A stretch of DNA of 64,000 nucleotides, from assembly GCA_959347315.1 (NCBI GenBank), contig OY365814.1:3461661-3525660 (forward strand), written 5' to 3'. The DNA is from Bimastos eiseni (taxonomy: Eukaryota; Annelida; Clitellata; Crassiclitellata; Lumbricidae). The position numbers and the translations under genes are program-made. This document shows positions 5,328-61,937 of the stretch, piece by piece. Within the stretch, counting starts at the first letter, position 1, and every line of letters starts with the position of its first letter. The notes beneath the pieces are model-generated. The model saw only the letters and a program-made list of their open reading frames with translations, was not told the DNA's origin and ran no database searches.

Positions 5328-7579
5328 ATTATTATTATTATTATTATTAATAAATTTGTAACGTGCACAAGGTCACACCTAAATGTGAACCTGAGGTGCG
5401 AATAGTCAGTCGCCAGGAGAAGATGCAATCAGATTTCCAAATCCTTGAAAGCCAAAGAGAAATAGTGAGTTTTGAGTCGCTTTTTGAAGGAAGGAAGTGA
5501 ATTTGAGCTACGAAGAGAAAGTGGGAGTCGATTCCATTCCCTAGGAGCAGAGACTTGAAATGCACGAGAGCCCATAACTGTTCTGCATCGTGGTTAAACT
5601 AAAAAACCTGTACTTGATGATCGTAAGCAACGAGGAGGAATGTAAGGAGTTAGTAGAGCATGAATATAGGTAGGTGTACTGGTGATGATGGCTTTGTAGG
5701 TCAAACAAGCTAACTTAAATTTGATTCTGAATTCAAGAGGAAGCCAATGCAGCTGGTGGAGTAGTGCAGAGGAGCATGTTCGTAGTGGGACATGTAGCAC
5801 TACTCGAGCTAACATATTTTGGATAAGTTGAAGCCTTTTGAGTTCAAGGTCTGAGAGACCGACAAAATGTGAATTAGCATAATCGAGACAAGAGGAGACA
5901 AGTGAGCAGGCTATAGTTTCAGAGATATTTTGGGTTAGAGCCGACCTTATGTGACGTATTGCCCTGATGTGGTAGAAACAAGATTTACAAAGACTCGTTA
6001 TGTGAGGTCGAAATGTGAGCTTGCTGTCGAGGGTAACCCCAAGTATTTTGACAGAGTCTGAAGGCGGCACAGCAGTGCCCGCCAGTTCAATGCTAGAGAG
6101 CATAGGGAAATAACGCAGGCGTTGACATGAGCCAAATACAATTGCTTCAGACTTGTTTGGGTTTATGGCCAAACCATTGAAACAGAACCATGTATATATG
6201 GATGAGAGGCATTCTTCCAGTTTTAGTTTACCAGACTGATCAGTGTGACAGAGCAATATGGAACTGAGTATCATCTGCATACTGTTGTAATTGAATTCCA
6301 AAGTGCTTAGCTATACGACTGATTGGGGAAGTAAAGACTGTAAATAACAAAGAGCTGAGGACAGATTCTTGTGGCACTCCAGCAGTGCAAAGTGTGGGCT
6401 CCGACCGAGCAGATCCAATGCCCACCTGCTTATTGCGGTCAACCAGGTATGAAGCTAACCAGTGTAAGGCAGTCCCAGAGACACCAAAGCTTTTTGCAAG
6501 TCTTGCAAGGAGTAACTGGTGGTCTACAGTGTCAAAGGCCATGGAGTAGCCTTCGCGATATGCTGACTGGTAGGGACTGAAGTTGGGAGAGGAAGTAATG
6601 TGTCTCTTGATATGCATAAGAAAAAGACGTTCAAGGATCTTGGAAATGTTATTAAGGTTGGAGATAGGTCTGAAGTTAGACAAATTGCTAGTGTCAAGGT
6701 CAGGCTTTTTAAGTAAAGGCATGACTAAAGCAGATTTGAAGCATGAAGGAAAGCACCCTTCAGCAAAAGATAGGTTGGCCAAGTGTGCAATGAGGTGAGA
6801 GAATACTTCAGAACAAGAGACGATGAATGATGTAAGTATGAAGTCCAATGCTGATGATTTAGGAACCATGCTATTGAGAAGATTAAAGACTTCAAAGAAT
6901 GTGGCAGGCGGTATGTCATCGAAGGCAGGGCCGGAGAATTCGGAGTCGAGTACTCCACACTAAATTAGCAGCACATCTAGCAATTTTACATTTAAGATCA
7001 ATAAATTTGTTTTTTAAAAAAATGCAGAAACATTTGCACACAGAGTCTGATTTTCTGTGTCTGAGCATTGGCCGTTGGTTCTATCCTTTGAGCGTAGAAG
7101 ACGCTGAGCGATGCGCCATCGGTCCCGAGGATTATCAGCACTTTCAAGTTGACTGCAGAAATACGAGCTTCGTGAATCGTTTATGAATTTATTTGTTACA
7201 CGGCAGTGTCGACAATAACACTGCCTAACCTCATCAAGTCCAGAATGTTTCCACTTTCTTTCAAGTCGACGACGCTTCTTTTTCGCACGGATGCTTCAGA
7301 TGAGAGCCATCTAGTAATAGGTTTAGATGGTCGCCTGTAGCAAGTCTGAATCGGAGCGAGTTTGTTCAATATCAGTGACACTGTTGTTTTCATGTGTTCG
7401 GCAAAATCGTTTGCACTGCTTGCAGGAGCTGTGAATAGGTCTGAGGCAATTAACAAGTCACTGAGTATTAAGGGGTCTATTGCTTTGATGTTTCGGAATA
7501 CATGACGCACTGGTTGGTGATGAATGGAAGTCATTATTTTACAAAGTACTAATTTGTGATCCAATATAAGACCAGTCAA
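5328..7579 (-). pseudogene. CR1-type non-LTR retrotransposon (decayed)
   Basis: Read on the minus strand. 7579-7196 encodes the end of the endonuclease and linker (LILDHKLVLCKIM, resembling the SDH region). 6869-6240 is reverse transcriptase with FDTVDHQLLLARL, AGVPQESVLSSLLF and the catalytic QYADDTQF. 6301-5594 continues the palm and thumb (LAINPNKSEAIVFG, VKILGVTLDSKLTF, LLHQLHWLPLEFRIKF). A frameshift then leads to the C-terminal APREWNRLPLSLRSS-like end near 5560-5400. The 3' end abuts an (ATT)n tract at 5329-5350, as CR1 3' ends often do. The overlap of the two large frames at 6240-6301 marks a frameshift, and the N-terminal endonuclease core is missing, so the copy is dead. This is the best-preserved reverse transcriptase in the window. 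Confidence 0.85.
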
Positions 7580-8142: not shown

Positions 8143-8749
8143 CAAGTGTTTGAAGCAGACGAACAACAGTCATCAGGAACATTGCAATGGAATTTTGACT
8201 ACAACTCTTGCTATAGTCAACTATTTCATCTTCGATTAAAGTCATAGGCCTACTTTGCAATATCGTTCAGATGTGGTAATATACAAGTGTCGGATTAAGA
8301 CCATATATTTCATCATAAAATCTTTTATGTGGGATTAAATTCTCATCGTGCTGCTACAGACTGATGGATCATGAGCCATTATTGTAATCATCTGAAATGC
8401 AAACTCAGTTGAAGTCAAACTCATTGGAAGTCGTTGATAAAGTGGACACTGCTGATATTGGAAAGGTGTTTACAGCATCAAATGCAGCATCAATTACTTT
8501 TCACAGACAATTACTTTGATGTGCATTCCAGACACATGCTTATCAAAAACCATGAAAACCCCATCATTATGCCATTATTGAGAAGCATCTATGAATCACT
8601 TAAAACATATTAAGATATCAAATATTTCAGAAACTGTTTTGGTGAAGCTGTTCATCAGACAGTTAACAAAAGAATCAATGCTGGAGAAATACCATGGAAT
8701 TACCAATTAAGTGAATATTAGAACCGTAAGGAAGAACAGCAAAATAGAT
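8143..8749 (+). other. ZNF-A 5' UTR exon part
   Basis: Begins after the acceptor at 8141-8142. The exon starts CAAGTGTTTGAAG, resembling the start CAAGCTTGTGAAA of the matching ZNF-C exon at 49612. The shared intron-exon boundary supports common descent and the reading of this part as untranslated. Confidence 0.5.
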
Positions 8750-10819
8750 ATGTCAGAATACATCAACTCTACTAATGATCGTATACTGAGAACCAACTCT
8801 GAAGAAAAATTATGCCAGAAATCATTTAATAAAGGTATTTATCTGAAAAAGCACATGTACACTAATGCTAGAGAAAAACCATACCATTGCCAATTATGTC
8901 AGAAATCATTTTCTTTTCATTGGAATATGAAGACGCACATGCGAACTCACACTGGGGAAAAACCATACAGGTGCCAGTTATGTCAAAGATCATTTATTGA
9001 TTTCACTTCTCTGAAAATGCACATACGAACTCACACTGGAGAAAAACCATACAGGTGCCAGTTTTGTCAGAAAGCATATGGTGATTGCACTGCTCTGAAA
9101 AGGCACATAAGAACTCATACTGCAGAAAAATCATACAGGTGCGAATTATGTAAGAAATCATTTACTAAAAGTGGCAGACTGAAACAGCACATGAACACCC
9201 ATACTGGAGAAAAGTCATACAGTTGCCTGCTATGTCAGAAATCATTTAATTTAGGCAGTAGTCTGAAGAGGCACATGACAACCCACACTGGCGAAAAGCC
9301 ATACAGATGCAAATTATGTGATAAATCATTTACTCAAAGTTGTACTCTGAAACAGCACATGAACACTCATACTGGAGAAAACCCACACAGTTGCCAGTTA
9401 TGTGAGAAATCATTTACTTGTCAAGGTCATCTGAAGAGGCACCATAGAATTCACACTGGCGAAAAACCATACAGGTGCCAGCTATGTCAGAAATCATTTT
9501 CATGTCATTACAATATGAATACGCACATGCGAACTCACACTGGAGAAAAACCATACAAGTGCCAGTTATGTGAGAAATCATATGCTGATTGCACTGCTCT
9601 GAAAAGGCACACAAGAACACACAGTGGTGAAAACCCATATAGGTGCGAATTATGTGATAAATCAGTTACACGAATTGGTAGTCTGAAGAGGCACATGAGA
9701 ACCCACACTGGTGAAAAACCATATAGGTGCGAAATATGTGGGAAATCATTTATTGATGAAAGTACTCTGAAAAGGCACGTAAGAACTCACACTGGAGAAA
9801 AACCATACAGTTGCCACTTATGTCAGAAATCATATAAGCATAGCAGTAATCTGAAAACGCACATGAGAACGCACAGTGGTGAAAACCCATACAGATGCGC
9901 ATTATGTGATAAATCAGTTACACAAATTGGTAGTCTGAAGAGGCACATGAGAACCCACACTGGTGAAAAACCATATAGGTGCGAAATATGTGAGAAATCA
10001 TTTGTTGATGGCAGTGATTTGAAAAAGCATATGAGAACTCACACTGGAGAAAAACCATACAGTTGCCAATTATGTCAGAAATCATTTAATATTAGCAGTA
10101 ATCTGAAGATGCACATTAGAACCCACAGTGGTGAAAAACCATACAGATGCGAATTACGTGAAAAATCATTTGCTGTAATTGGTACTCTGAAAAAGCACAC
10201 AATATCCCACACTGTAGAAAATACGTACAAGTGCCAGTTATGTGAGAAATCGTTTACAGCCAACAATAATCTTATGATACATATGAGAATGCATTCAGAA
10301 GGAAAGCCATACATATGCAAGGTTTGCAATAAAGGATTCACACAAATTGCGTCATTAAAGAAACACAGAAGAACTCATGAAACCGAGAATCAGCACACAG
10401 GCAATATACCGCATACCAGGAGCAGTTCTTCAGCGAAGTTGTCTAATCTCCATGGGAGTACGCAGTCACAGGATCCTAAAGATGGAAGTGGAGCAATTGC
10501 TAACCTATCTGATCACAGCCCATTTGTTTTTGATAAAAGAAAAGAACAAGTCTCAAAGAGCATATATTCGGATTCTAGTGGAATGGCCGGGCCTTTTCCG
10601 AAAATTAGAGATGGAGAAAGTGTGTCAAATAGCAAATCCAAATGGCTTGTTGATGAAGAAGTGTATTTGTTAACAAAATTTGGATGTGGCATTTGTAGCA
10701 ATTTTTTTCAAATAGAGCAGGAATTTATTGCTCATTGCTCTACACATCGATTATCTCCACCTGACGACTTAGTTGCTGATCTGTGCAGAATTATGGCTGC
10801 ACATAATTACCTTTGTTGA
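8750..10819 (+). CDS. C2H2 zinc-finger protein, 18-finger array plus detached C-terminal finger (ZNF-A)
   Basis: Predicted nuclear sequence-specific DNA-binding protein of 689 residues. The start chosen is the first ATG in frame (8750), after an in-frame stop at 8708; it lies in one exon whose acceptor is at 8141-8142, leaving about 600 bases of 5' UTR. A degenerate finger lacking its first Cys comes first, then an almost unbroken array of C-x2-C-x12-H-x3-H fingers joined by TGEKP or TGENP linkers. One late finger reads CELREKS, with its second Cys replaced by Arg. After about 90 Ser/Lys-rich residues comes a lone finger, CGIC ... HCSTH, followed by [13 protein letters not shown]. The same detached terminal finger ends the other two zinc-finger loci here, so all three are paralogues. 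No KRAB, SCAN, BTB or ZAD domain is visible. Targets are unknown. Polyadenylation signals AATAAA lie at 10897 and 10901. Confidence 0.9.
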
Positions 10820-14388: not shown

Positions 14389-14540
14389 TTAGGATCCTTT
14401 GCGATTCAATGAATGATGACAGAATTCATTGCAGATTTATGTAGGTTGGATGAGGTGTCCATCTCATGATAGTCAAGCATGATTTCACTTTGTTTTCCTG
14501 ATATTCCTCACCTGTTCAATGCTTCTGGGAGTAGCTAGCG

Positions 14541-16342
14541 ATGGAAGTGTTACCATCGATAGGCATGATTCCATTTCTGAAGCATTTTCGGATGATTCAA
14601 TTGACCTTTGTATTGTCAGAAAACATCAACTCTACTGATGATAGTATACTGAGAACCAACTCTGAAGAAAAACCACTAAGGTGCAAATTATGCCAGAAAT
14701 CATTTAATAAAGATAGTTATCTGAAAAGGCACTTGTACACTAATGCTGGAGAAAACCCATGCCATTGCCAATTATGTCAGAAATCATTTTCTTATCATTG
14801 GAATATGAAGACGCACATGCGAAATCACACAGGGGAAAAGCCATACAGCTGTAAGTTATGTCAGAAATTATTTATTAAAGGCAGTTATCTTAAGAGGCAC
14901 ATGAAAACCCACACTGGGGAAAACCATACAGTTGCCACTTATGTCAGAAATCATTTAATAATAGTAGTAATCTGAAACCGCATATGAGAACCCACACTGG
15001 TGAAAAATCATTCAGGTGCGAATTATGTCAGAAATCATTTGCCCAATTTGAGCATCTGAAAAAGCACATGACCACTCATACTGGAGAAAATCCATTCAAT
15101 TGCCAGTTATGTCAGAAGTCATTTGCTTATCGTGTTCATGCGAGTATGCACATGCGAAATCACATTGGGGAAAAGCCATACAGGTGCCAATTATGTCAGA
15201 AATCATTTTCTTATCATTACAGAATGAAGAGGCACATGCGAACTCACACTGGGGAAAGCTACACAGATGTGAATTGCGTCAGAGATCATTTGTTTATTTT
15301 AGCACTCTGAAAAGGCACATAAGAACTCGCACTGGGGAAAAGCCATACAGGTGCAATCTATGTGAGAAATCATTTACTCAAAGGGGTAGTCTGAAACAGT
15401 ATATGGACACTCATACTAGAGAAAAGCCATTCAGTTGCCTAATATGTCTGAATTCATTTAAAAAAGACAGTAATCTGAAAACGCACATGAGAATCCACAC
15501 TGGTGAAAAGCCATACAGATGTGACTTATGTGACAAATCATTTGCTGAAATTGGTACTCTGAAAAACCACATAAGAACTCACACTGGAGAAAAACCGTAC
15601 AGTTGCCAGTTGTGTCAGATATCATTAATCTGAAGACGCACTTGAGAAATCACACTGGAGAAAAACTGCATAGGTGCCAGTTGTGTCATAAATTATTTGT
15701 TGATTGCAGTGCTTTGAACAAGCACATGAACACCCACACTGGAAAAAAAACGTACTAGTGTCATTAACTCGTTTGCAGCTGACAATAATTTAAAGACACA
15801 TATGAGAACGCATACAGAATTAAAGCCATGCATTTGCGAGATTTGTAATAAAGGATTCACACAAGTTGCATCACTAGAGAAACACAGAGGGACTCATGAA
15901 ACCGAGAAGCAGCACACAGGCAATATACCGCATACCAGGAGCAGTTCTTCAGCGAAGCAGGTCAATCTCCATGGGGAACACAACCAAATGAGCCTGCGGA
16001 TGGAAGGGAAGCTATTGCTGACTTGTCTAATCACAGCACATTTGTTTTTGATAAAAGAAAAGAACAATTCTCAAAGCGCATATATTCGGATTCTAGTGGA
16101 ATGGCCGGGCCTTCTAAAAAAATTAGAGATAGCTAATGTACGTCAAATAACAAATCCAAATGTTCTGTGAATTCGAAGGCTTATTAATTTTGTCCAAACC
16201 ATTTGGATGTGGCATTTGTGGCGAATGTTTTGATATTGAGCAGGAATTTATAGCCCATTGCTCTACACATCGATTATCTCCATCTGACAAATTAGTTGCT
16301 GATCTGTGCAGAATTATGGTTGCATATAATTACAGCTGTTAG
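14541..16342 (+). pseudogene. Frameshifted paralogue of ZNF-A (ZNF-B)
   Basis: Zinc-finger sequence closely related to ZNF-A from the [14 protein letters not shown] leader through the array to the lone terminal finger CGIC ... HCSTH near 16205-16270. The frame breaks at least three times. One base is lost near 14925, inside a GGGGAAAA run of the linker. Another shift lies near 15253 in a similar run. A finger is cut short near 15615. There is also an in-frame TAG at 15756-15758, and the tail changes frame again before 16160. No continuous product is possible. A few pieces keep 4-5 intact fingers. The leader also fuses to unrelated sequence at its 5' end, and no matching acceptor was found. 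It looks like a recent tandem copy decaying through slippage in A-runs. Confidence 0.8.
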
Positions 16343-19177: not shown

Positions 19178-19212
19178 AAAGGAAGATGACTTCTTCAGTT
19201 GCAATAAGAACA
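19178..19212 (+). CDS. CARD-TIR adaptor, exon with proposed start codon
   Basis: A small exon between an acceptor (TTACTTTTCAG, ending 19177) and a donor (GTAAGA at 19213). ATG at 19186 in good context (AGGAAGATGA) opens nine codons, MTSSVAIRT, ending in phase 0. That matches the phase-0 start of the CARD exon at 19789. This is the best start found; upstream sequence gives no phase-compatible alternative that I trust. If it is wrong, translation would begin in another unseen exon, because the first CARD helix (FTDFLEEH) precedes the only internal ATG. Confidence 0.45.
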
Positions 19213-19788
19213 GTAAGACTGAAACATTCCGTTTAATAAACTTATTTGTATTAATACTGAAATTGTCCAGAAATCTCTCTGATGTTTGGCTTATTGTTTC
19301 TAAGTTTGTCCCTCATTTCTGCTGCGAAGTCTGTCAATAGTCAGTATTTTTCTCGCATATCGTCTTCGCCTATACGTGACTCTCTGAGAAGAGCAGCTGG
19401 GCTCGGTTGAGTATGGGATGTAGGCCTACGGACAGCATTGGCCTACAGTCAGGTCACTGAATCTCAACGGAGACGATATGCGGCGCGAGATTGTGTGAAT
19501 TCGCAACTGATGAATAAACATTGTTTTAATTACATATAAAATGTTTGTTAATAAAGTTATTTGATAGCACAATAGATAGGCTCATTTTATTATTGCAATT
19601 GTCATAATGAAACCTTGTGTTTGGAAGGCTACAAAGACATAAAATTATTAACACCACCCACATTAACCATAAAATTTTAAGTGTTTGTATTACTCGCCCA
19701 TTAATCAGCACATGAATGCACTAATCCAGTAAATATTAAAAATACTGCCACATGTTACTGTCGTACTGATTCGTTTTATTCTGAGCAG

Positions 19789-20026
19789 TTCACGGATTTT
19801 TTGGAGGAACATATGGATCCAGATTATGGACTTCTGGATAAAATACGTGCCGGAGGAACCATTTCCAAGAGAGAAATAGATGATGTTACGAGCGAGAATA
19901 CGTCATGGAAAAGAAACTCAAAACTCTTGAATTATATTTTGGCCAAAGAACAGAGTGATGCTTTGATTGTGGCTTTACGAGATTCGGATCAGATGCACAT
20001 CGTAAACTATTTGACAGCGAATGGAG
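19789..20026 (+). CDS. CARD-TIR adaptor, exon encoding CARD 1
   Basis: Residues 10-89 of the proposed 765-residue adaptor. The fold signature is a caspase recruitment domain: FTDFLEEHMDPDYGLLDKI, then AGGTISKREIDDV, then KLLNYILAKEQSDALIVAL and a last helix ending NYLTANGG. This corresponds to the L-D-LLD-L-x-G-IS-x-E core of CARDs. CARDs make homotypic contacts that assemble signalling filaments. The acceptor ends at 19788 (CTGAGCAG; using the inner AG at 19785 would only add one Gln), and the donor GTAAGA follows 20026 in phase 1. The intron downstream holds two hAT-type MITEs. Confidence 0.75.
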
Positions 20027-20614
20027 GTAAGAATGTATTCAATGCAAAGAGTGTAATATGTGTTTATGTGTATTATTTCTTTGTACTTTATAGATTGTTT
20101 GACCAGTTGTAGTCACCGATGGATTGAGAACAGTTAGCAAAACAACGCATAGTAAGCTGTAGGAGTCGCCAATGGCTGGTCCACGCACAAGGGTGGAAAC
20201 AAACCAACGGATTCCCGTCAAAAACCGCTGACTGATGACATGCATGTTCAGAGTCTCTGGAACAAGATGCGCCGAAAGGTTTAGCGAAGACTGCCGAGAT
20301 AGATTCGTAATCACGGATATGAAATCGACGAGTAATCCCTCGCTGGTGTAAGATGACGCACGTCCGGATATTCGTCGAGGTTAAAGGTGGATGTAGAAGA
20401 GTAATTCGTCGCGCGTTGGTCGGTAGATTTACTAGATTGTATAGTCACCCGTGACTATCGGTCGAGGTCACTCCAATGGCAGCGATACGTGCTGATCCTG
20501 AGCCGTTCAGTCACACGGCTTAGACAACTTGCGAGGGAATGGCTGTCAAACGTACACAATTCTTTCCAACGCCAGCGATTTAATTCGGGAAGCAAAAGCC
20601 AGCACTAGAGACAT
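20027..20614. other. Intron part, CARD1 to MITE A
   Basis: Intronic; no independent gene seen. Confidence 0.45.
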
Positions 20615-20622
20615 GCTAGAAG

Positions 20623-21388
20623 TAGTGTTGTATGCTAGACCTTAAACTTCAAGACCAAGACGAGACCGAGACAGTGAGGTACCGAGACCGAAACCAAGAC
20701 AGTGAGGTACCGAGACCGAGACACTAGGTTCAAGACAGTTCGAGACAGTAAAAGACAAGTGATCCTATCTAAACGGCTGTAAAATACTAATGTATCAGTT
20801 TTCGGGAATAAGGTTCATATATTTCTTCTTCGGCCTATCTACTGAATAGTGTAAAGAAAGCACGTCTGAAATGTTCTAGACGATTTTAAACAAACAAATT
20901 CGATACCAAATACCAAACGAAATTATAAATTTGTACATATCCTTACTCACCCTGAGAAACTCGAAGTTGTTCCGATCGTTTCGGTTATGGTGGTTTTACA
21001 TAAATGACAAACTAATAGCCAGTAGCTGTTGTTTGTAAATAGGCCTAACTTCAAAGTACGTAAACGCAAACTTCACAATTTCAGGTTCTTTCTCAGACAT
21101 TTGTCCACTTTAAGACAATTGAATTTATTTAAGTATTATGTGACTCGCGCGTTAACCAAAATTACTGTTTCTCGTAAATTCCGGTTTCAGTTTCTAGCGT
21201 AAAATTTTAAGACAGTTAACGCGAAACTTATCGAGACCACTTGTTCGAGACAGAACAAGACTTTCACTTCAAGACAGTTTCTAAAAGTTCGAGACACTAC
21301 CTCGAGACCGAGACAGCAGGCTTCCGAGACCGAGACACTAAAAAACTGTCTCGAGACCGAGACACTGTCTCGAGACCATACAACTCTG
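20623..21388. mobile_element. hAT-type MITE A in the CARD1-CARD2 intron
   Basis: A 766-bp element with ends TAGTGTTGTATG and CATACAACTCTG (inverted), flanked by the exact 8-bp duplication GCTAGAAG (20615-20622 and 21389-21396). The 8-bp duplication and CAGNG-like ends indicate a hAT-family insertion. The sub-terminal regions are packed with GAGACCGAGACAGT-type repeats. No transposase frame. Confidence 0.8.
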
Positions 21389-21522
21389 GCTAGAAGTTAT
21401 TAAGCAAATTCTGCATTTAAATTAAAACATTAGTCGAAATGATGCAAGAGTCAATAAATCGACGAAGATGGCCAATCTCGTACGCAGAATCCATACTGGT
21501 AATGTTCCATGGAAGGTATTTC

Positions 21523-21982
21523 CAGTGTTGTATGGAGGACTTGAAACTTCAAGACCAAGACGAGGCCAAGACAGTGAGGTGCCGAGCCCGAGACCGAGAG
21601 CGAGACAGTGAGGGACCGAGACCGATACACTAGGTTCAAGACAGTACGAGACAGCACGAGACAGTAAAAGACAAGTGATCCTATATATAATGCTGTAACA
21701 TGCTAATGTATCAGTTTTCTGGAATAATGTTTATTTGTAATTTCAATTTGAAACTTACAATGCATATAGTACAAACTCCTGAGCACAGTTTTTATATTTC
21801 CGCGCAAGATTTTAAGACAGTTCACGCGAAACTTATCGAGACCGCTTGTTCGAGACAGAGCAAGACACTCACTTCAAGACAGTTTCTAAAAATTCGAGAC
21901 ACTACCTCGAGACCGACACCGAGACCGCAGGCTTCCGAGACCGATACACTAAAAAACGCTGTCTCGAGACCATACAACTCTG
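21523..21982. mobile_element. hAT-type MITE B, same family
   Basis: A 460-bp relative of element A, 134 bases downstream, with ends CAGTGTTGTATGG and CCATACAACTCTG and the exact 8-bp duplication GGTATTTC (21515-21522 and 21983-21990). It is shorter through an internal deletion. Confidence 0.85.
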
Positions 21983-21990
21983 GGTATTTC

Positions 21991-22407
21991 ACGTTGAGGG
22001 CAGCTACGCATTGCATGAAACGCCACCAGAAGTCTCATCCCATTCGAATATGGGAATGTAATTGTAACTTATAATACCATTCCTCATTCAATGAAAATTT
22101 TAAAAATTGGCGATGCGAGTCGGTTTTAAGGATTGACCTTCCGTCAATCAACCAGGCCAGCGTATAATTACATGTATATTTAGGCAATAGGCTCATCTAA
22201 ACTCGCCCAATCACAGCTGAAAGGTAGCGCACCGACTGGCAGCCGATATGCATTCTGGGGATAGTATTAAAAAGAATGAAATGCCAGTCACACCACTATT
22301 TGTTGCGGACAGTAACTAACTCTCTAAACCTGCCGTCTTTCACTTACAACTTTACTGCATTTTAACACCTATGCAATCTTTGTCCTTGGTGATGAATTTT
22401 GTTTTAG
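21991..22407. other. Intron part before CARD2 exon
   Basis: Intronic; ends with the acceptor GTTTTAG. Nothing else recognised. Confidence 0.45.
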
Positions 22408-22713
22408 AAAATTCAGTTGGATTTGGTGGAGAATGGCCCTTAACCAAAAAAGAAATGTCAATACTAGACATAAATCATGAATGTTTGGTTGATCTTCTGG
22501 AACTGTCAGAACTACTTGGTCTTCTGTATTCATCGAGGGTCATTAACAGAAGGCAGAGGGATACAATTTCTTCAAAGCCAACTTCGCACCAGAGGAACGA
22601 AACACTTTTGGATATCTTGCGAAGACGCAGTTTGCGTGACTTCCAAAATACAATCACCTGCCTTCACAAGTCACAGCAAAGCCACATTGCCAATACACTC
22701 GACAGTGGCGGAG
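22408..22713 (+). CDS. CARD-TIR adaptor, exon encoding CARD 2
   Basis: Residues 89-191. The acceptor GTTTTAG ends at 22407 and the donor GTAGGA follows 22713. The exon is symmetric phase 1-1 (306 bases), so it can be added or lost without breaking the frame. It reads ENSVGFGGEWPLTKKEMSIL, a second CARD or death-fold domain with VDLLELSELLGLLYSSRVIN and ETLLDILRRRSLRDFQNTI, ending in a Gly-rich tail like that of CARD 1 (SGG against NGG). The similar ends and exon phases suggest that the two CARDs arose by exon duplication, though their sequences have diverged strongly. Confidence 0.75.
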
Positions 22714-23535
22714 GTAGGACTGTTTTAATCATCGTTGAATAAATTTCTATCTTCTTCTACTTCAACAGCACTGATAATAGTTGACTTCTGTCAAGTGATA
22801 TCTGTTTATCAGAGAAACTATAGTCTCTCTCTTAAAGTAGCCTATTCCTTGATCCACCTTGGTAAGTCTTCACCTCAGCAAAGCCTTTCCAAACTGGCTG
22901 CTTAAGTAGACGAACTATATAAATATCACTCAAAGACTCTCACATCTAATAGTTTATTAATATGCTGTTTCCTAAATCTGAAATAGACCTTTCTAATTTA
23001 AGTCAGGAACTTTCATGGTGCCATTATCGCAATACATAGTTCTCGGGTCTACAATGGTTTTTTACTTTCTTACCAGAAAGACGATAAAATAAACTCTAGG
23101 TATCTGAGTCGAGCAGATAATAATCCGTTATGCCTCGGAGATTTGCGGCTTAGATTAGAATACTGTAGACGATATTTTATTAGATATTTGAATTTTTTAA
23201 AGGATTTAATTATTACAACCCAGGCATTTGTAATGCAGAGTTTATTACCCTGCAGGACATGCAAGCAGGAGAGGTAGGATGACTGGGCACTTCATTTAGG
23301 CCTACGGTAAACTGGATATAAATATACACGGAGTGAAAAATACATTAGGCTTACATTCAATTAAATTAAAATGACAAAATGTTTGAATGCAGCAATTTCA
23401 AAGAACACATTCTCAGCCATTGTGCTCTGTATTGTCTTCATTTTTCCTCATCAGTATTCACCTTAATATTGCACTCGTTTTATTATGTAGGCCTATCGCC
23501 TTCTAAGAGAATAACCTGTTTCTGTTTATTCCTAG
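22714..23535. other. Intron between CARD2 and module exons
   Basis: Intronic; ends in a clear polypyrimidine tract (TGTTTCTGTTTATTCCTAG). No other feature seen. Confidence 0.5.
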
Positions 23536-23892
23536 TTCTTGTGAGAGCTCATGCAAGTCTGGACGGAGAGAACGTCACGGAGAGCGAAAACGAAATTGCG
23601 GCAATGATAGCAAATATTGTCATTAACAGCTCAATCGATCAACCAAGTAGAATACTTGACCTTGCACATGGAAAAATAATTGCTGCTAAGACAGGCCAGA
23701 GCATCGTTCTCTACATATACTGTAACACAATCGGAGATCTACAACAACTCCAGGAGTCACTGACCTCAGTACAACTCAAGGATTCAGTTGATTTGTGGTT
23801 TAATTCCTTATTGAATCGATCAGAGAAAATAACAGTGAGAGCTATAACAATCTCCACTGAAGAGTTTAAGAAGATGCAAATATATTTCAAAG
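23536..23892 (+). CDS. CARD-TIR adaptor, exon encoding an uncharacterised module
   Basis: Residues 191-310. The acceptor TTCCTAG ends at 23535 and the donor GTGAGA follows 23892. The exon is again symmetric 1-1 (357 bases) and is one whole domain. It begins with a charged helical stretch (ENEIAAMIANIVINSS), then SIVLYIYCNTIGDLQQL near residues 246-262, a helical LKDSVDLWFNSLL, and a final strand-like EKITVRAITISTEEFKKM. The mix of a Cys-containing hydrophobic strand, a Leu-rich helix and a second beta strand resembles small alpha/beta modules I associate with invertebrate CARD and death-domain proteins, but I cannot name the family. Its position between CARD and TIR suggests a linker or self-association role. 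Confidence 0.65.
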
Positions 23893-25833
23893 GTGAGAAC
23901 TTGCATTGCATTCAATTAATAATTTTGCATTCGACTTCAATTGTAGGTTAAGATTATAAGCACTGTGAAACACCAATATCTTTATGATCTGCTAATTTAA
24001 TCACTCCGTCATTCAAACACAACAGCATGACAGAAAGGAACGTGAATAACTTAGCACTGAGTGTGAACTAAACATTTGAAGGATATGGAAGACAGGGGCC
24101 TTCTGAATTTCGAGGCAAGGGAATGGACGTCAGAAAACATATTTGTAACAGTAAACATGCTTATTTCTGGCGTCGCTGTGTTTATCAATAAATCTTTTTT
24201 TTCTCACAATATACACTGTATATGTGTTTTATTAAAATAACCTATTATCAGATATATTTGTGAAGGGCCCAAAACACGTCGCTTGTCGTTTCCCAGTTAT
24301 TACGCAAATTGATGCAATAGGCGTGATGAGTAAAACACAGACACATTATTATTGTGTAAATTTACAAATAAATGTGTCGACTTTCAATATCTGAAATTAT
24401 AAATATTGAATTCAAATATTTAGTTGGATAATCTCCTGCAGCCGAAAGTTCAACCGCTATAGGCCTACTAGCAAAAATTTTACATCTACTGCGGAACGCG
24501 TAAAAAATTATCGAGTGAAGACTTCTGCGCATGCGCAACCTTCGGCGTATGCGCATTGTTAAACACCCATAATGATTTAATATGCGTCGTAAGGGTCGGT
24601 TAAGGTCAGGTTAAGCATCCTGAGGGTAGATTAAGATCAGGTGAGGCGTCGTGAGGGTAGTTTACGGTCATGGTTAACTTTAGCTTCGTTTTTAGACAAT
24701 ATGCGATGAACATTCGGCCGCATAAGTAATCTTTTCGTGCGTTGAGAGGCCGAAGTTTCGGCCGCAGTAGCTCCACGTGTCAAGATTTGCTTTGCAGCAA
24801 TTGCTAAGATATGCATGCTCTCAAGGCTAAATCCGCGATGAATGACCGCCATAAATTGCAAAGTAGTAGCCATATATAGATGTCATGTGCTTAATTTCAT
24901 GCAGAATATTGCCCTTTATTGCCAGCAGAATTGCAGCGCATTCAAATAATGGTTACTAAGAACTTGATGCCGCGAATTTTCTGAAACCTTGACTTTGATT
25001 TTCTCAGTTGTTATGATTATAAGCCTACTAATGAAAGAGCTAAACGAGTACAACCTAGGTTAGAAAAGGTTTGATTCTGTGAAAGTATTTGGACGCAGTT
25101 GCATTGTAGAATATGATTTAATAAAAAGAAAGTAAAACACCGACAAGTGAAGGTTTTGACCTCCTTCGTCACATTTGTTTCCATGATGAGATATAATTAT
25201 TAACGGCACGGATGCATAGGGCCTACACGTACCTCTGTCTTGTAGGATTCTTATAATACCTTTTGAACAGATTCACCTGGGAATTTGGCTTGCACAATGA
25301 TTCTTGCACAATGATTCTGCTTAGTGGCAGCCATCGATTGATGCCTTGAGTATTGTTACATGTTGGTGCTATAAAAGTGCCTAGCTTAAATTCGGCAAGA
25401 TAAGTGTATTTTAGTGCATTTAAGGCATGACTGTAGGGATAACTTTTGTGCTCTTAGTATAAGTATTTAATTACTACCGTAGAAGAAGGTGTAGGCTAAT
25501 GTTAATTAGATATATGCTATAAAACATGAGCATTTCATGTTGCACAATAGTTTGCACTTAAGTATGTGTGCGTTAACCTTCTTTATGTTTGCCAGTTTTT
25601 GCCGATTTTAAATCATTGTTGGTGTATTGAGTGAAAGATCGGAAAGTCGACATTGATAATTTGATGAGTATGTAATAAAACTAATCACGTCTTCAGTTCA
25701 AACGTGTTTGGGTCTTTACTTTTTTCTTCAGCTGATGTGGATGTGTGGCTTCTATCTGTGTGTGACTTTAAGGTTCTAAAGTACAGTATACACTGAGATA
25801 GCATATTATGATGATGTCATTTTTTCTTGACAG
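23893..25833. other. Intron between module and TIR exons
   Basis: The longest intron besides the one with MITEs (1.9 kb). It holds the NRF1-like palindrome and, at about 24590-24655, two copies of a roughly 33-bp unit (GGTTAAGGTCAGGTTAAGCA, then a diverged copy with GGGTAGATTAAGATCAGGTG). No further exon found. Confidence 0.45.
24526..24537. promoter_or_regulatory. NRF1-like palindrome
   Basis: TGCGCATGCGCA, the canonical palindromic NRF1 binding word, with a half site (GTATGCGCATTG) just after it. It sits in the intron before the TIR exon in a locally CpG-rich stretch. It could mark an internal promoter or be chance. Confidence 0.3.
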
Positions 25834-27128
25834 CTGGAAGGGTCAGTGGAGTGGGATCAAAAGACACTACAGAGTTGTCGAGTATGGAGATGTCTGAACC
25901 AGGCCATCATCTGGTCAGCAGTTCCAATGATTATGGTAGCTCAACCACTTTGTCTTATGAAGAACTCTATGCTACTATAGAGCAAGATCCTCTGCCGCTA
26001 GAGACAGAAATCCAATTCGTGTTAGATCATCATCAGTCAACTATGAGCAGTTCTTTGCAAAACACAGAATCTCAGTGTTTGATGTTAGGAGAGCAGTCTG
26101 TGCCTCTTGCTGCTGATGTGACTTCATGTGAAGAACAACTAGAGCAGATTGTTATTCCCCCATACGAGCATAAGGAAGAATTCAATGAGGGTCAGTTTGA
26201 TATTGTCTTGATCTACAGTGAATCCGATCGTGATAAGGCTTTAGCTTTCATGGAAATTTTGACTAAGTTTGTAACTTTACAGGATGGCAAACCTCCATCA
26301 ATCTGTGTGCTAGATCAAAATGAACATCTGAGTTATATTAACTCTAGGTTTGAACATATGGAAGAGGCTCTTCGGCGCAGTACGTACATGTTCATTTTTC
26401 TTACCAAAGATTTCTTTGGCGACAGTTGGGCTCGACTGCAGAGTAATGAATGTCTGATGGAGTCCATCCATAATGAGGAGAAGAAATGGTGTGTTGTCCC
26501 CATTCTTACAAAGTCCCGAAAAGAGGCTGATTATCAGTTGCCATTTGGCTTAAGAGCTTTGAAAGGAGTTGACATTTCTCATATGCTCCGTGGAAAAACA
26601 TTGAATTCTATAGATGTGAATGCCTTGGAATCAAACGATGTGGATCCTTTGTTTCTGAAAAATATGACAAAAATGTTAAATGATAGAATATACTTGAGGA
26701 TTGAGCGAGAGAAGCGACAATTGGTTAGTTTTCAAAATTGGTTAAAAGACAAAAAGCACAGGTGTCGAAAATCGAAGGTGTTGCAAAAGATAAAGCTTGA
26801 CGATGAACTTCGAGATAGAATGCATGTCACAGAAAGGCAGAATTTGCTGAAGGAACTTGAAATGCAAGAAATAAAGGCAATCATAGTAGAAGAAAAGTTA
26901 CTAAGGTCAACTGAAAATAACAGATTTTCTGAGCGATTGCAACTTCCGATTCATGAGGCAGATCCCGTTGGTCAGACAGTGGCAACCAAAAAGGTAGCAA
27001 CTGTTGAGTATCATCATCATTATTATGGCACATTACATCAGAATCCAGCTGAACAGACAGTCTACCAAATCTATGGTCCAGTATCAAACTCGCAGATTGG
27101 TCGTGAGAATGTCCAGCACAGGGAAAAG
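25834..27128 (+). CDS. CARD-TIR adaptor, exon encoding a TICAM/TRIF-like TIR domain and RHIM-like motif
   Basis: Residues 310-741, one long exon (acceptor TTCTTGACAG ending 25833, donor GTATTT after 27128, phase 0). An acidic Ser/Thr-rich linker (about 311-425) precedes a TIR domain at about 430-567: box 1 FDIVLIYSESDRDKA (431-445), BB-loop region VLDQNEHLSY (468-477), FLTKDFFGDSWARLQ (498-512), VVPI (530-533) and PFGLRALKGVD (546-556). The spacing and the DSW/VVPI/PF-L pattern follow vertebrate TRIF/TRAM (TICAM) TIRs better than MyD88. The BB loop lacks the usual Pro. A charged helical region (about 597-672) follows. The C-terminus then has VYQIYGPVSNSQIGRENVQ (about 720-738), matching the RHIM layout of IY, five or six residues, then a Q-I-G core and a following Asn, as in RIPK1, RIPK3 and TRIF. 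TRIF likewise carries its RHIM after the TIR. The expected role is an innate immune adaptor in the cytosol. The frame also continues past the donor to a TAG at 27135, giving an alternative end two residues later. Confidence 0.85.
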
Positions 27129-27316
27129 GTATTTTAGTAGTTATTTGCCTTGTTTGCTTTTAACGGTTTAGTTGATTATTTTAGTGTAGTTTATATACGA
27201 ATAATAGGCGACAACGGAGTGGGCAAAAACAAGACAGAAAAACTAGTTGAACCCAGCGCCCTTCACGGTGGAAATCGGTTTATTTTGATAGTTTTGATGA
27301 TGAATTTTTGCTACAG

Positions 27317-27391
27317 GAAGACGATGTACCGGAGTCCACTGAATACATTGTGGTAACTGAGGAGACATCTACTTCTCTGCAACGAGGTTAA
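27317..27391 (+). CDS. CARD-TIR adaptor, terminal exon
   Basis: The acceptor TTTTTGCTACAG ends at 27316. Phase 0 joins the preceding exon. It encodes EDDVPESTEYIVVTEETSTS followed by LQRG and stop TAA at 27389-27391, an acidic Ser/Thr-rich tail. A possible donor (GTTAAC at 27387) overlaps the stop, so a further exon cannot be excluded. With this end the joined coding length is 2298 bases, an exact multiple of three (765 residues plus stop). Confidence 0.6.
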   Translation, partial: EDDVPESTEYIVVTEETSTSLQRG

Positions 27392-27439
27392 CTTTGACTG
27401 ACTTCCATCTGTCTGCATATAGGCCCTATATTCATTACA

Positions 27440-28420
27440 GAGATTTATATAGCGCCCCTTCAAGGCTACTACTCAGGAGCGCTCCCGACTCCAGCACGTT
27501 TAAGCAGAACAGTTTTAAGGCAAGTATAAAATGAGTCTGAGTGGACCCCTGGCGACAACCGCAACGCCAACGGGAGCGTATACTCAAGTAGAGTAACAGA
27601 GATCGCGAAGATAGGCAGGGGCGAGACCTAGCAAGGACCGCCAAACCAAAGAGATGATACGGTACGAGATTCGCTGTTGGAGGGGAAGCCAGTGGAGCAC
27701 ATCCAGCATATAGCCGGATACATGGCCAAATTTAGGAATGCGTCCAACAAGACATGCAGCAGGACGCAGAACCCGCTCCAGGCACCGCAAACGTCCAGCT
27801 GGAAGGCCTGCTTTGAGTGAGCAACAGTAATCCAGTCGGGCAGTAATGAAGGCGTGAACAAGGGTAGCTGTGGCGTCTGGAGTTAGCGAGCGGGAAACAG
27901 TTCGAAGCAACTGGTAATATGAATCAAGGCAAAGGCGGTGAATATGAGAGGCAAAGGTGAGCTCTTGGTCCAACATGACTCCAAAGTCCCGGACAACAGA
28001 GGAAAATGCAACGAGGGGGAAATCAGCAGTAATGGCAGTTAAATCATGCTTCATAAGCTGCTGGACAGTCCAGCCATATAAATTGGTTTTTTGGGGATTG
28101 AGTCGCAAGCGGTTTGACGCCATCCAAGTCTCGAGGGCATCCAGTGTTTGGCTCATTGCCCGAACAGCAGTAGAGGCATTAGAAGCCGTGCAATGTAAGT
28201 AGGCTTGGACGTCATCCGCGTACAGGTGACCCAGCACAGCAGTGGCATTAAGAACAGAAGCAATCTCAGCAGTGTAGATGACATACAGAAGGGGACCTAG
28301 CACAGAGCCCTGTGGAGGGCCATAATGGGCAGGGACTTACGTGGACCTGGAAGACCTATGAACCACACAAATGGTGCGCTCTCTGACAAATGAGGCCAAC
28401 CAGCTATATCTTTGTTTGAT
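27440..28420 (-). pseudogene. 5'-truncated CR1 retrotransposon
   Basis: Minus-strand reverse transcriptase from GSVLGPLLYVIYTAEIASVL through LGHLYADDVQAYLH (the catalytic YADD), LRLNPQKTNLYGW, VRDFGVMLDQELTFASHI and MLDVLHWLPLQQRISYRI. Upstream (to about 28420) only a frameshifted piece remains (ISWLASFVRERTICVV). The plus-strand sequence at the 3' end, CAAGGCTACTACTCAGGAGC, recurs at 38140, so the same subfamily inserted there. It lies 50 bases after the CARD-TIR stop codon, in reverse orientation, and could supply antisense sequence to that 3' UTR. Confidence 0.85.
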
Positions 28421-29288: not shown

Positions 29289-32039
29289 ATGGTGCTTGTT
29301 GATTGCACTGGTTAGGCACGGAATTTGGACGTGTTGTTTGATTCAAATTTGTTATTTTTAATCCTATTTGGATCGCACACAAATCAGCTCAGTTTCACAT
29401 GTGAGGTGTTCATCGAGTCAGGTCTCTGTTCATTATACCGTTTTAATGTTTTTTACTGCCTCTAGCAGACTTGACTTGAGTAATTTGCTTCTCATTGCTA
29501 TTACTGATGGAAATCTGCATGAGCTCATTCACTATTATTGCTGCTAGACAGATATCTAACAATGACAGACTACAAGCATTGTTTTTCATGATATTTTTCT
29601 GAGTTGATTCTTTACACCTCCCACTCAGCAAACTCATGTCCACATCCCCTGTTGATATCATCACTTCTATGCTGATGTCACACAACTCAACATATTCTTC
29701 CAACTGACTCATATGCACCATATTTCTATAGGATCATAACCAATGTATCACCTGAGTGTCCACCAACTTACTATGCCTAAACTCTTAAGCACAGTATTTC
29801 TCATAATTGGCCTTTGTGAATGACTAAGTAAACCTTGCTATCCTCCAGACATAATTTTCTACAATAGATCTAGCTTTTTTCTAGTTCAAAATCATGGAGT
29901 CGTCGTAAAAAAATGCCTCAACTTTGCTGACAACATCACTGAATTACCAAGTCGATACCTGCTATATATACATGTATACATCCACTGTCAACTTAATGAC
30001 CTCATAATTGACTGTCTGCACAACAATTATAGTCCAGATGGCTTGTTTTCCGGTCACAGGCTGGTTGTGGTCATAGACCCTGAGACAGCTGGGTCATAGA
30101 TCTGAACGATTTTTCAGATGCTGGCCTTGAGACTACGTCCGTCGATAGACCTGTTTCTACTGAATGTGATGACACCTTGAAGGCAATGGTTGAACAGAAA
30201 TCAATGGCTGTTTTGTAAGTATTTGGAATGCCTATTATGTGATCAATTATTTCACCAAAGCCAGGCACAACTTACTTTTTTACAATTTGAGCAACATATA
30301 CCATTTTAGATGGTAGAAAGCTTCATTTAAAAATGACACAAGTTTAATTTTTCCATGATTATCCTGTCCAAAGTTATCAGTAAAAATATGGCTCAGTGGA
30401 AAAATATGCATTTAAAGTTTGGTGTAATTTTGAAATAATAAATTCTCAACCAACCTTTTCAGAATAAAGTGAAATTTGAAACAGACAGACTAGCTTATGT
30501 TTGCTGTCTAATACTTACTTCAGCAGCATATGTGGCTATTGAGTAAAACAATAAACAAAATGTGTTTGTAAAAATCATTTTTAATGGCTTTTAGATGTCT
30601 TTGTGGCAGCCAGTGTTTCTATAGTTTAGCAAATTCTTATAATTTGCCATTTTCTCGCCATTGAGGCTAGGATAGCACATTTGATATGAGTAGACTCAGT
30701 AGCCTTTCGTCTAGCCTATGCCGTATGTATAAAGTTAATAATCCTTTTCTTAATAGTGAGTCAGCTTAGGCTTGCCACAGTTGGCTGTACTCGTTGTTTT
30801 CAGCAACCTCAGCCTGCTTAATGCATTTCGTGAGACGATTAGGGTCTCCCTGTAGTTGATTCTAGGTCATCCACCTTTTTCAACTCCTCATCGGCGGCTG
30901 GCCAAGTCAGCAGTGGTATGCCAAACAGCGTCTCCTGTCCAAATGGTGTGCGTTAGAAACTGTTTACAACAAAAGATTGACGACTTTAGTTTTGTAATTC
31001 TGGTTGTGTATCTAGCATTTGCTTGGTTCAGTTGAAGCACAAGCGTAGGTGACTTGTGTGATCAACTAACGTTGTGTGGGTTGCCACATCCACCTTGCCT
31101 CCCAATGTCAGATCGCCTAGAAATGGGACTCTGACTTCAGCTTTATTCAAATTGGCTGTTCTGTTATTCTGAATTCTAGGAGCCCATCGGATCAGCCTAC
31201 TGGATGAACATCTACCATCCTGTGCCATGTCATACATACCACGGCCAATGCTTGATGAAGGTCGACCTACATGTAGCGCCGTGCACCAGGCCAACCTATA
31301 ATATATTTCATTGTTTAGCCGGTGACATGGACATTAATGAACTAGCATTATTATCACAGATTATCTGGCTAAGTAAATGTCAGATCACTTTTCCCTATTT
31401 TTGAAGATTGTAGAGAAGTGTTCATGTTCTGTTTATAATGTGCTTCTCTTGTCAATCCTGAATCCTTCTAATGTTGTGAGACGGTATTTCCTTACTCGTC
31501 ATGAAGTATAAGTCGATTGAAGGCACGTGATTCTCTTGCAGCTCTTGCAGTCACATAATTAGACAAGTCTGTCTCAGTGACTGATTGTTATAGGTAGACT
31601 ATAGTTCGATTGTAGATAGTCCAAACAGTTTAATCCATTTGTGAAAATCACTGCTAGGGTAATCCACTAAGCAGCAGTTCGCTGTTATTAGTCAGACTAA
31701 CTGACATTACTCATTTACGCGTACTGTCATCGTCAATCTTACTTGCTTTTTATGGCCAATATTCACAGCCTTCTTTAACTCAAAGTTCAAGTTCAAGTAC
31801 ATTTGACGCTTAAATCTAGCAATTTTAATAGAAACAACCCATATTTCTTACATAAAGATGACTCAACAACTTTCCAGCGTTTTTAACCAGAATATTAGCG
31901 AAACGTTAAATTAAGATGTAGGCCTAAGCTATTCTAATTTCAAAGATAACTTATTGACTAAGAACCAAGCATTCACGTGTGTGACTTCTTGGTTCATGAG
32001 ATTGCATAATGCATCTTAAGATGTACATGTATGTGACGG
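29289..32039. other. Long stretch without a recognised gene
   Basis: Short frames only. A minus-strand frame at 29443-29721 and a plus-strand piece near 29995-30060 (SPDGLFSGHRLVVVI) look faintly like the end of a retrotransposon endonuclease, but not enough to call. No repeat with clear ends was found. Confidence 0.35.
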
Positions 32040-35370: not shown

Positions 35371-35737
35371 GTAGATAACTTGATGGGGTGCTATATAAAT
35401 GCTGAATTACATACCATTGCATTCTAATTTTTTTACATTTAGGTTGAAGATGAATTTATTTGACCAAGTAAACTCGGCCAATAGTAAGCAAACAGACGAC
35501 AATGCGTCTAATAATTTGAGTTAGGGCAGGCCCTATAGGCCTATACTATTATAGATCAACAAAGAAGTTAGAATAATAAATTAACAAAGAGGTAGATAAC
35601 TAAACAATAATTTTTGCGTTTGGAATAGCAATCAATTGTTATAAAACATATTTATATTGTTCACATATTTATATATTCATTTATTATATCGAGCGACATC
35701 TTGTATCAACACTAATTTGTGACACTAATTTTGTTCT
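35371..35737. other. Intergenic or intron, no gene seen
   Basis: Ends in an acceptor-like tract (ACTAATTTTGTTCTAG at 35725-35740) that could begin the NHL relic. Confidence 0.4.
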
Positions 35738-35740
35738 AGT

Positions 35741-36935
35741 CGTGCGCGAGATTTCCGTCAGCTTGACGGAGGCAATTGACTTTGAGAAAGATGAATTTTT
35801 TGGGGAGTTACTGAACTGCGAAATATGATCTGCGCCCTCTCTAGACAATCTACTTTTTATCCGCCGTCACGTGCAATTTACGTCTTTGATGGTCAAACTC
35901 CATTTTGTCTTCAGAGAAAAATAGAGATAAACGAGATTTTAAATCCCTTAGGCATCGGATCCAGTGAGAATAAAAATTGTCTCTTCGTCTTTGCCTTTAA
36001 TAAAACATGCGTGTGGAAGGTTACAATGGAAACAGATGATCAACACAAAATCATCAAAAATGGGTGACGCATGATTATATATGCTTGCTCCTTTATCAGC
36101 AGCAAGTGATGGTAAGATTTTTGTGAGCAATTATTCATCCAGTCTTTTGATCTATGGATCAGACTCAGACCTCATTCAATCCATTCAGTTGCCAAAAGAC
36201 ATCCTGAATCCTAGGCATGTAGTGGAAACATCCATCGGAAATGTTGTCATCCTTTACGGCCTAAAAGGGGAAAAGTCGATCCAAAAAGGGGTGCAAGAAA
36301 AAGAAGAAGACGACGAAGAGGAGGAGGACTGGTACGTGGACGACGAGAAGACGAAGGAAAAAGAAGAGGATGTTGGGTCAAGTGTGAGAAAGTCGACGGA
36401 ACGTGAGAAGGGAGAGGAGAAGAAAGATATAAGGGAGAAGGAAGGGAGTACGTCAAGAGGAAATCCGTCTACCGGAGAGGAGGAAGAAAAGAAAGATAAG
36501 ACATTTGAAAAGTGTGGGTCAGGTTGGATAAAGAAAGGAAACAGATGGCGTATACATGTAAGTGAGATAAACACGGATGGACAGATTGTCGGTCGTTTTA
36601 TTCTTAAAAATAAAAGGCAACAATTGGAAGGTCCTTTCTATCTGTCACTCGATTCAGACGATCAAGTGTTTGTGACTGACATAGATAAATATAAAGTGAT
36701 TCTCTTTGATTCGGATCTCAAATGGAATCGAATTCTTTGTCAAACAGCAGAAGAAACGGAAAAGAAAAGAACAGGAAGGGAACAGGAAGGGAACAGGAAA
36801 AGAACAGGAAGAACAGGAAAAAGAAAAGAACTTCATTGTTCCACAGAGATTATGTTACGACTAAGAAAAAAAACAACTGATCGTTCTGCACCACGCAGGA
36901 GTTCTCATTTACACTTTAAGTCTAATTTAGACTAA
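35741..36935 (+). pseudogene. NHL-repeat beta-propeller protein, C-terminal part, frameshifted
   Basis: After an acceptor-like TTGTTCTAG comes a charged stretch (TEAIDFEKDEFFGELLNCE), then propeller-blade motifs in changing frames: SRAIYVFDGQTPFCLQRKI, KNCLFVFAFNKTCVWKVTM, SAASDGKIFVSNYSSSLLIY, EINTDGQIVGRFIL and YLSLDSDDQVFVTDIDKYKV. The D-G-x-I-x-V and D-x-V-F-V-x-D pattern is that of NHL blades, as in TRIM-NHL proteins. Frame breaks lie near 35822, near 36060 (two extra A), and near 36080 (two extra bases before ATGCTTGCT). The end near 36830-36935 continues in another frame as KKQLIVLHHAGVLIYTLSLI with a stop inside. Blades are interrupted at 36290-36520 by an insertion rich in Glu and Lys. 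It is dead as a whole, though the 284-codon frame at 36081-36935 stays open. Confidence 0.6.
36290..36525 (+). repeat. Lys/Glu-rich low-complexity insertion
   Basis: A purine-rich AAGAAGAAGACGACG- and GAGAAGGAA-type tract inside the NHL relic, encoding runs such as KEEDDEEEEDWYVDDEK. A second purine tract, GAACAGGAAGGGAACAGG, at 36765-36830 repeats a 10-11 bp unit. Both look like slippage expansions. Confidence 0.65.
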
Positions 36936-44479: not shown

Positions 44480-46330
44480 ATTTGCTTCCAGTATGTGCAG
44501 TAGTTTACAGACTTTGTTAGATAGGAGTGAAAAATAAAGGAGGCCCAGAAGGGTCAAACGACCCACTTAATCGGATGGCCTCCATTACATAATAGTTTAA
44601 AGGCTGCAGTGAGACATATCATACGGAGGCAAATTTTATTCTAGACACAGAACAAATCATTAAGAATACTTAGCTAAGAACTTAAAAACTAAAGAAGTCG
44701 ACAGTGGCTGGCTGATTTAGGAGCAGAAAAATGAAATTAATAACTTGTATCCTACAGGTAATTTTGCAATGATTTTTAAAATAATTTCAGTCTTGGTAAT
44801 TGTCTAATTGCAGCTGGTATCTCATTCCACTCGTAGATGGCCCAATTAACCTTAGAGCAAAGAGTCTAGTGTTTGTCCTTGCACATGTTGGTCGGTATGA
44901 CTCAGCTTGACTAGTTGTATATGATAGTATATCAGAAGTAGTGATAAAGTAGTTATCAAATGATACATGGTAGCAGTTTATTTACAGCTTTATACACGAA
45001 TAGACACACTTGTAGTGTATTCAACTGGTGAATTTTAAGTATGTCATGTTTTTCAAAAGAGGGATGACTGTGATAGTTGTGTGGTAATTTTGCTATTATT
45101 CTGACAGGTTTTTTTTGTAAAGTACTAGCTTTAATATTCGATGCAGATAATTAGAGGCCGTTACAATATTACATTACCTCAGATACGGATGAATCAGTGC
45201 ATAGTATGAGCTTATTAATACGGTACTTTATTCGGCACATATTTAGCAAGTCGATTTACAACTCCTGCATTTCTTGCAATTTTTCTAGAGATAGCAGTAA
45301 TGTGTTCTGACCAATCAAGATGTTCATCGATACAAACACCTAGAAATTTAGTGGATGTCACTTGTGGGATTTCTGAACTGTCAATAATTAGTTTAACATT
45401 AAGTGAATTTGTTGGTTTCCTATGTGATCAGAACAAAATAAAATTAGTTTTCTTTACATTTAGTGACAATTTATTTGTTCTAAACCAATCTACTACATTT
45501 TTTAGTTCAGCATTGATTATGTTGTATAATGCTTCTCAGGATTTATGTGAATGAATTACATTTGTGTCATCTGCAGAGATGATGAAGTTTAGTATCGTGG
45601 AGGCATTTGGAAGATCATTAATATATATTAGAAATAGTAATGGACCCAGATTTGAGCCCTGCGGCACACCATATATCACAAGTTTGGGTCTCGAGAACTT
45701 TCCGTTACACATAGCTTGTAGATATCTATCCTCAAGATAACTATAGAGCCATTGATTCGTGATTGCTTGTATGCCATAGTATTGTAATTTTTTAATGCGA
45801 ATAGTATGATCCACCGTATTGAAGGCTTTTGCTAGGTCTACGAATATACCTACAGAGAACTCATTATTATCTAGTGCTGAAGAGATATGTTCTTGTAAAT
45901 TTATTAGGGACATATGAATCGAGTGGCCGGATCTGAAACCATGCTGTTTAGTGTACAGAAGGTTATTTTTAGCCAGGTGGTTGTTTAGTCTATCAAACAT
46001 GGTCTTTTCAATTGTTTTTGTAAATACCTGCAGGATTGAAATCGGTCTATAGGTAGGGAGATCTTCCTTATTTCCCTGTTTATGTATAGGCACACATTTT
46101 TGCAATTTTTAGTTCTTTTGGGACCACACCTGTAGTAAAGGAGCAATTTATGATGTTAGATAGAGGTTCAGCAATGAGTTCGAAAACGGTTAGAGCAATT
46201 GTCGGATCAATACCATCAAGGCCTGTGCTGTGAGTTGGTTTAACCCCATGAGCAATATTTATTTTTCCCCTGGATCAGTTAGAAAGAGGGCTAAGGAATT
46301 ATCACAGGACATTTTCATATATTTATCATA
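44480..46330 (-). pseudogene. Jockey/CR1-like non-LTR retrotransposon, 5'-truncated
   Basis: Minus-strand reverse transcriptase: YRPISILQVFTKTIEKTMFD, HGFRSGHSIHMSLINLQEHI, VGIFVDLAKAFNTVDHTI, YGVPQGSNLGPLLFLIYIND and ISADDTNVIHSHKS (catalytic FADD changed to SADD). Frameshifted continuation to about 44700 gives FLGVCIDEHLDWSEHI and a C-terminal end. The 3' UTR at 44530-44590 is a plausible tail. Wording differs from the CR1 copies, so it is a separate subfamily. The Phe to Ser change in the catalytic box plus shifts mean that it is inactive. Confidence 0.8.
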
Positions 46331-61782: not shown

Positions 61783-61937
61783 GTGAGTTCCATCATGAAG
61801 TTATGAATTCGGAACTAGATAATGAATCTAATCGCAATTGTATTGAAATCACTTTGCTTTAATATAACCACTGATTTATATGTTACTGTTCATTCCACCA
61901 ACGCCACCTCACGAGTGAATACTGAATCAACCGTAGG

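Follow-up and report, generated by a model that had tools for sequence, protein, structure and literature searches.

Neighbouring CARD-CARD and TICAM-like TIR exons, read tentatively as two genes

Main finding and gene structure

In the window (the whole 64,000-nucleotide stretch of DNA analysed here), which lies on contig C9 of a 660-Mb assembly, six plus-strand exons between 19178 and 27391 have AG/GT borders and join in phase into 765 codons plus a stop, as a preliminary description of this DNA had reported. Our main reading, to which we give a probability of roughly 0.55, is that these exons belong to two neighbouring genes, i.e., a copy of a local CARD family and a TICAM-like adaptor; the single adaptor with CARDs, a TIR, and a RHIM-like motif that had been proposed is not established, and the balance of evidence slightly favours two genes. 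In the two-gene reading, exons 1-4 (CARD, CARD, alpha/beta) would represent the 5′ part of one family copy whose own 3′ part has been lost or has decayed, and exons 5-7 would form a TICAM-like adaptor located between exon 4 and a relic of an NHL propeller. The features are as follows.

19178-19212, plus strand: exon 1, a short 5′ part and the start codon (ATG at 19186), 9 codons
19789-20026, plus strand: exon 2, first CARD (Pfam CARD); 57-88% identity in paralogues A, B, C, and E
22408-22713, plus strand: exon 3, second CARD (Pfam CARD); 66-82% identity in six paralogue loci
23536-23892, plus strand: exon 4, alpha/beta module, tentatively TRADD-N-like; conserved in paralogues A, B, C, E, and F and in P0007
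25834-27128, plus strand: exon 5, linker, TIR, coiled coil, and RHIM-like motif; six relatives (P0001-P0006) with 39-73% identity
about 26196-26585, plus strand: TIR of exon 5, TRAM/TICAM-2 by phmmer
about 26646-26939, plus strand: coiled coil of exon 5, predicted helix 271-368 in the structure model
27069-27116, plus strand: RHIM-like motif of exon 5, conserved across the window and the six relatives
27317-27386, plus strand: exon 6, ending at the donor GTTAAC; P0001 residues 581-610 match 27317-27385
27584-28336, minus strand: reverse-transcriptase ORF within the intron between exons 6 and 7
30118-30214, plus strand: exon 7; P0001 residues 611-645 match 30117-30215 (tblastn E 8e-6)
35734-36921, plus strand: decayed relic of an NHL-propeller terminal exon, 67.8% DNA identity to 21955-22926 of paralogue E over 1024 columns

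The CARD exons and their paralogues

Both proposed CARD exons, starting at 19789 and 22408, were recovered in profile searches. Pfam CARD finds two stretches in the whole model (E 2.8e-11, 43.7 bits); taken alone, exon 3 scored 39.1 bits against PF00619, above the cut-off of 23.9, and exon 2 scored 21.8 bits, just below it. Exon 1, with both splice sites, was found at the DNA level in paralogues D (twice) and F. A genome census, in which the best 150 of 586 candidates were scored, placed at least 16 CARD places on contig C9, including the window's own; six of the other 15, at 3.72-4.62 Mb, are closely related to exons 2-3 and are referred to here as paralogues A-F. Among the same best 150 candidates, and as a lower bound, CARD places were strongly clustered on contigs C5, C7, C9, C13, and C14.

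The second CARD exon was present in all six paralogue loci and the first in four, missing from D and F, where the upstream sequence read was limited; exon 4 was present in five, with a whole frame in A and F and a broken one in B, C, and E. No TIR exon was found in any of the six loci in the 160 kb read in all (29 kb after exon 4 in A, 5.5 kb in B, 3.5 kb in C, 24 kb in E, and 19 kb in F; in D, without exon 4, 16 kb after the second CARD). Ka/Ks between the window and its paralogues ranged over 0.28-0.48 for exon 2 (4 pairs) and 0.32-0.61 for exon 3 (6 pairs) and was 0.37 for exon 4 (1 pair).

Downstream of exon 4, paralogues A, E, and F share a CARD-like exon unrecognised by Pfam, and E and F also carry a second alpha/beta ORF. 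Paralogue E includes a long NHL-repeat exon (NHL E 2.4e-9) with a stop and, close behind, AATAAA; the propeller exon of F is in pieces, and none was found in the stretches read of A, B, C, or D. These loci suggest a full family order of CARD-CARD-module-CARD-like-module-propeller, in which the order seen in exons 1-4 of the window would lead, in a sister copy, to the CARD-like exon, the second alpha/beta exon, and the NHL-propeller exon. No match to the family's CARD-like exon or second alpha/beta module was found in the window. Downstream of paralogue A (L025 and L031-L032), there are mobile-element ORFs, one set Polinton-like and another gypsy-like by eye.

The end of family homology and the propeller relic

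Alignment of the window with its paralogues runs through introns to exon 4 and ends at 23894 or 23895 (B, E, and F) or at 23948 (A); homology to four paralogues stops at the end of exon 4 or within 56 bases of it. Intron 3 of the window aligned with scores of 469 (E), 329 (F), 144 (B), and 41 (A); for intron 4, none of the comparisons with A, B, E, and F exceeded 60 shuffles (A equalled the shuffle maximum), and intron 4 of E aligned with that of F with a score of 599. Since the NHL exon ends paralogue E, and the propeller relic of the window comes after the TIR exons, these TIR exons are flanked by the two ends of a CARD-family copy; together, the homology break and the relic indicate that exons 5-7 lie in sequence foreign to the CARD family. 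The matched segments of the relic contain two frame changes and one in-frame stop, i.e., three lesions in about 1.1 kb, compared with none in the 928 nt of exons 1-4 (Poisson P 0.084).

The exon 4 module

Exon 4, previously called a novel module, looks like an alpha/beta plait and is perhaps TRADD-N-like. Its structure model, of low confidence, has the order beta-alpha-beta-beta-alpha-beta. The available text of Kaur et al. 2021 (PMC8195603) describes the TRADD-N signature as a tiny residue plus Ser in the beta2-beta3 turn; the Ser is conserved in this turn of exon 4 in the window, A, P0007, and E, but is preceded by Q or K. Exon 4 had no TRADD-N match in Pfam, and a search of the PDB with its profile found no TRADD; across the genome, PF20694 matched one place, located elsewhere than exon 4, and hhalign of exon 4 with that place gave a probability of 0.5%.

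The TIR and the RHIM-like motif

The TIR had been described as TRIF-like, and this agrees with our finding that its nearest solved relatives are TRAM/TICAM-2 (best E 1.2e-5). The phmmer search against PDB sequences matched four chains at E ≤ 1, three of TICAM-2/TRAM (E 1.2e-5 to 5e-5) and one cullin, and a profile of seven sequences again matched TICAM-2 TIRs alone among TIRs at E ≤ 1; the TICAM assignment is a sequence comparison with the TIRs among PDB sequences. Pfam TIR_2 (PF13676) scored 23.0 bits for the whole model and 24.7 bits for exon 5 alone, both below the cut-off of 28. The AlphaFold model of exon 5 (mean pLDDT 54.1) is too poor to add to the TIR assignment; a Foldseek search with this low-confidence model found nothing at E ≤ 0.001, and the best 50 matches included no TIR. 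In the 765-residue model, we found no Pfam family for the TRIF N-terminal domain among matches at E ≤ 5 and no pLxIS motif for IRF3 (pattern as in PMC9440496).

Across the window and six relatives, no other 16-mer in residues 300-431 of the translated exon 5 is as well conserved as that at 27069-27116, which is therefore likely to matter. The motif matches four of the six fixed positions of the RHIM consensus [IV]Q[ILV]GxxNx[MLI] (PMC9440496) in the window and in each of the six relatives; the RHIM core G-(I,V)-Q-(I,V)-G (PMC7885112) is absent from the 765-residue model, and Pfam RHIM had no match in the five tails scanned. The preliminary description is therefore supported as to a conserved motif after the TIR, but not as to a RHIM proper, and "RHIM-like" is as far as the name can go. 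At residues 57-61 of P0001, where its unmatched 5′ part joins exon 5, the sequence is GVQIG, which fits the RHIM core pattern completely; this may be chance or a second motif. In echinoderms, according to the available text of PMC12119088, no RIPK1 homologue has been reported.

As far as the available text of each source goes, amphioxus bbtTICAM belongs with the TICAM adaptors (PMC9440496, PMC11788365), TICAM is traced no deeper than amphioxus, with no RHIM found there (PMC9440496), and TRIF-like TIRs are placed in jawed vertebrates only (PMC7075850). If the host is not a vertebrate, the presence of a TRAM-like TIR together with a conserved RHIM-like motif beside an expanded CARD family would bear on the origin of the TRIF branch.

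The 3′ end of the TIR gene

The stop at 27391, taken previously as the end of the gene, is probably not the gene end, because P0001 (965 aa) covers exons 5, 6, and 7, continuing past this stop into an exon 7 that is found in the window. In exon 6, a GT donor precedes this stop by four bases (CGAG/GTTAAC, the slash marking the border), and the reading frame is still open beyond exon 7. A repeat in intron 6 (27430-27956) recurs ahead of the propeller exon in paralogues E and F (81-94% identity) and partly overlaps the minus-strand reverse-transcriptase ORF of that intron.

Several further features of the window were noted. Long plus-strand ORFs (8711-10816, 14535-16167, and 50003-52255) resemble C2H2 zinc-finger arrays, and minus-strand ORFs at 5597-6959 and 45539-46108 resemble, by eye, retroelement reverse-transcriptase fragments. 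A GAGACC-rich repeat has several copies in intron 2 (20624-21971) and one inverted copy near the window end (61934-62671).

One gene or two

Several lines of evidence favour two genes. In the paralogue loci read, the second CARD is present in six of six, exon 4 in five of six, and a TIR exon in none of six; similarity to the paralogues breaks off at exon 4, and the decayed propeller of the CARD family is found on the far side of the TIR exons. In addition, two relatives, which we take as spliced because they lack introns, part from the six-exon model at the same join. P0007, a single ORF of 381 aa, reads CARD-CARD-exon 4 and then continues with about 48 residues that do not resemble exon 5. 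In P0001, exon 5 is preceded by 60 residues without a match upstream in the window and thus has another 5′ neighbour. This 5′ part of P0001 is apparently not simple intron retention, because the join codon begins with A rather than G. Counting against two genes, P0001 and P0007 may be partial, unspliced, or chimeric, the gap between exons 4 and 5 is only 1.9 kb, their phases match, and no promoter, first exon, or poly-A site was demonstrated between them. The phase match says little, because the inner exons of the family share one phase class; exons 3 and 4, which are neighbouring CARD-family exons, are phase 1 at both ends.

A less probable but serious alternative is one chimeric gene, in which a rearrangement in intron 4 would have put the TICAM-like TIR-coiled coil-RHIM-like exons behind the CARD-CARD-alpha/beta exons. 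Such a chimera would be young: a TIR cassette would have replaced the sensor end of an NHL-propeller family member, with phase-1 splicing yielding a single adaptor. Both sets of exons lie on the same strand, close together, with compatible phases and an open frame, and the homology break just past exon 4 is where this alternative would have it. Exons 1-4 are intact and constrained relative to the paralogues despite the decay of the native 3′ end, a contrast to be expected if these exons remain in use, e.g., in a chimera. Against this, no sequence spanning the join of exons 4 and 5 was found in the protein searches, two of which covered the best ~8,000 candidates listed, P0001 shows a different 5′ neighbour for exon 5, and compatible phases are weak evidence given the shared phase class. 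In vertebrates, the CARD branch and the TRIF branch are separate proteins; if the chimera were true, CARD and TIR signals would converge on one filament-forming protein, which would combine polymerisation through CARDs with TIR assembly and an amyloid-type motif. If the exons are spliced together, the locus would capture exon shuffling in the act of assembling an adaptor, and the relic would be what remains of the end that was shed. It is improbable that the CARD copy is a dying pseudogene beside a TIR gene that alone works, a reading to which the broken exon 4 of paralogues B, C, and E, the decayed propeller of the window, and the mobile-element remains of the locus lend some weight, as exons 1-4 of the window all retain open frames and AG/GT sites and Ka/Ks is below 0.62 in 11 of 11 window-paralogue pairs.

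Returning to two genes, we infer the transcription units, and each functional step that follows, from the observed exons, domains, paralogues, missing homology, and relic. The TIR would dock on receptor TIR domains, as in TRIF/TRAM (judged from what is known of the family), the coiled coil may aid clustering of the TIR adaptor, and the RHIM-like motif could seed amyloid-type assembly, with a signal leading to NF-κB or cell death; the CARD protein by itself might recruit caspases or other CARD proteins.

Comparison with known systems

RIG-I carries tandem CARDs, and the window resembles the MAVS/RIG-I branch in this respect; it differs in that no helicase or membrane anchor was seen here and in that a sister copy of the CARD family has an NHL propeller. 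Among the TICAM adaptors (TRIF/TICAM-1 and TRAM/TICAM-2), the TIR is nearest to TRAM by sequence among solved structures, and, as in TRIF, a conserved short motif lies C-terminal to the TIR; in contrast to these adaptors, a long predicted helix follows the TIR, and neither a TRIF N-terminal domain match, nor pLxIS, nor a full RHIM consensus is seen. In the invertebrate TRADD-N superfamily, as set out in the available text of PMC8195603, a death-fold domain is joined to a small alpha/beta module, with lineage-specific expansion and domain shuffling near retrotransposons. The CARD family studied here shares the joining of a death fold to an apparent alpha/beta module, the expansion, and shuffling near retrotransposons, but has CARD instead of the usual DED, and its exon 4 has no sequence match to TRADD-like_N, with weak evidence for the fold. 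Finally, the available text of PMC2575513 gives 20 of 28 TIR domain combinations of amphioxus as amphioxus-specific; the amphioxus TIR proteins resemble the arrangement considered here in having the TIR shuffled with other signalling domains.
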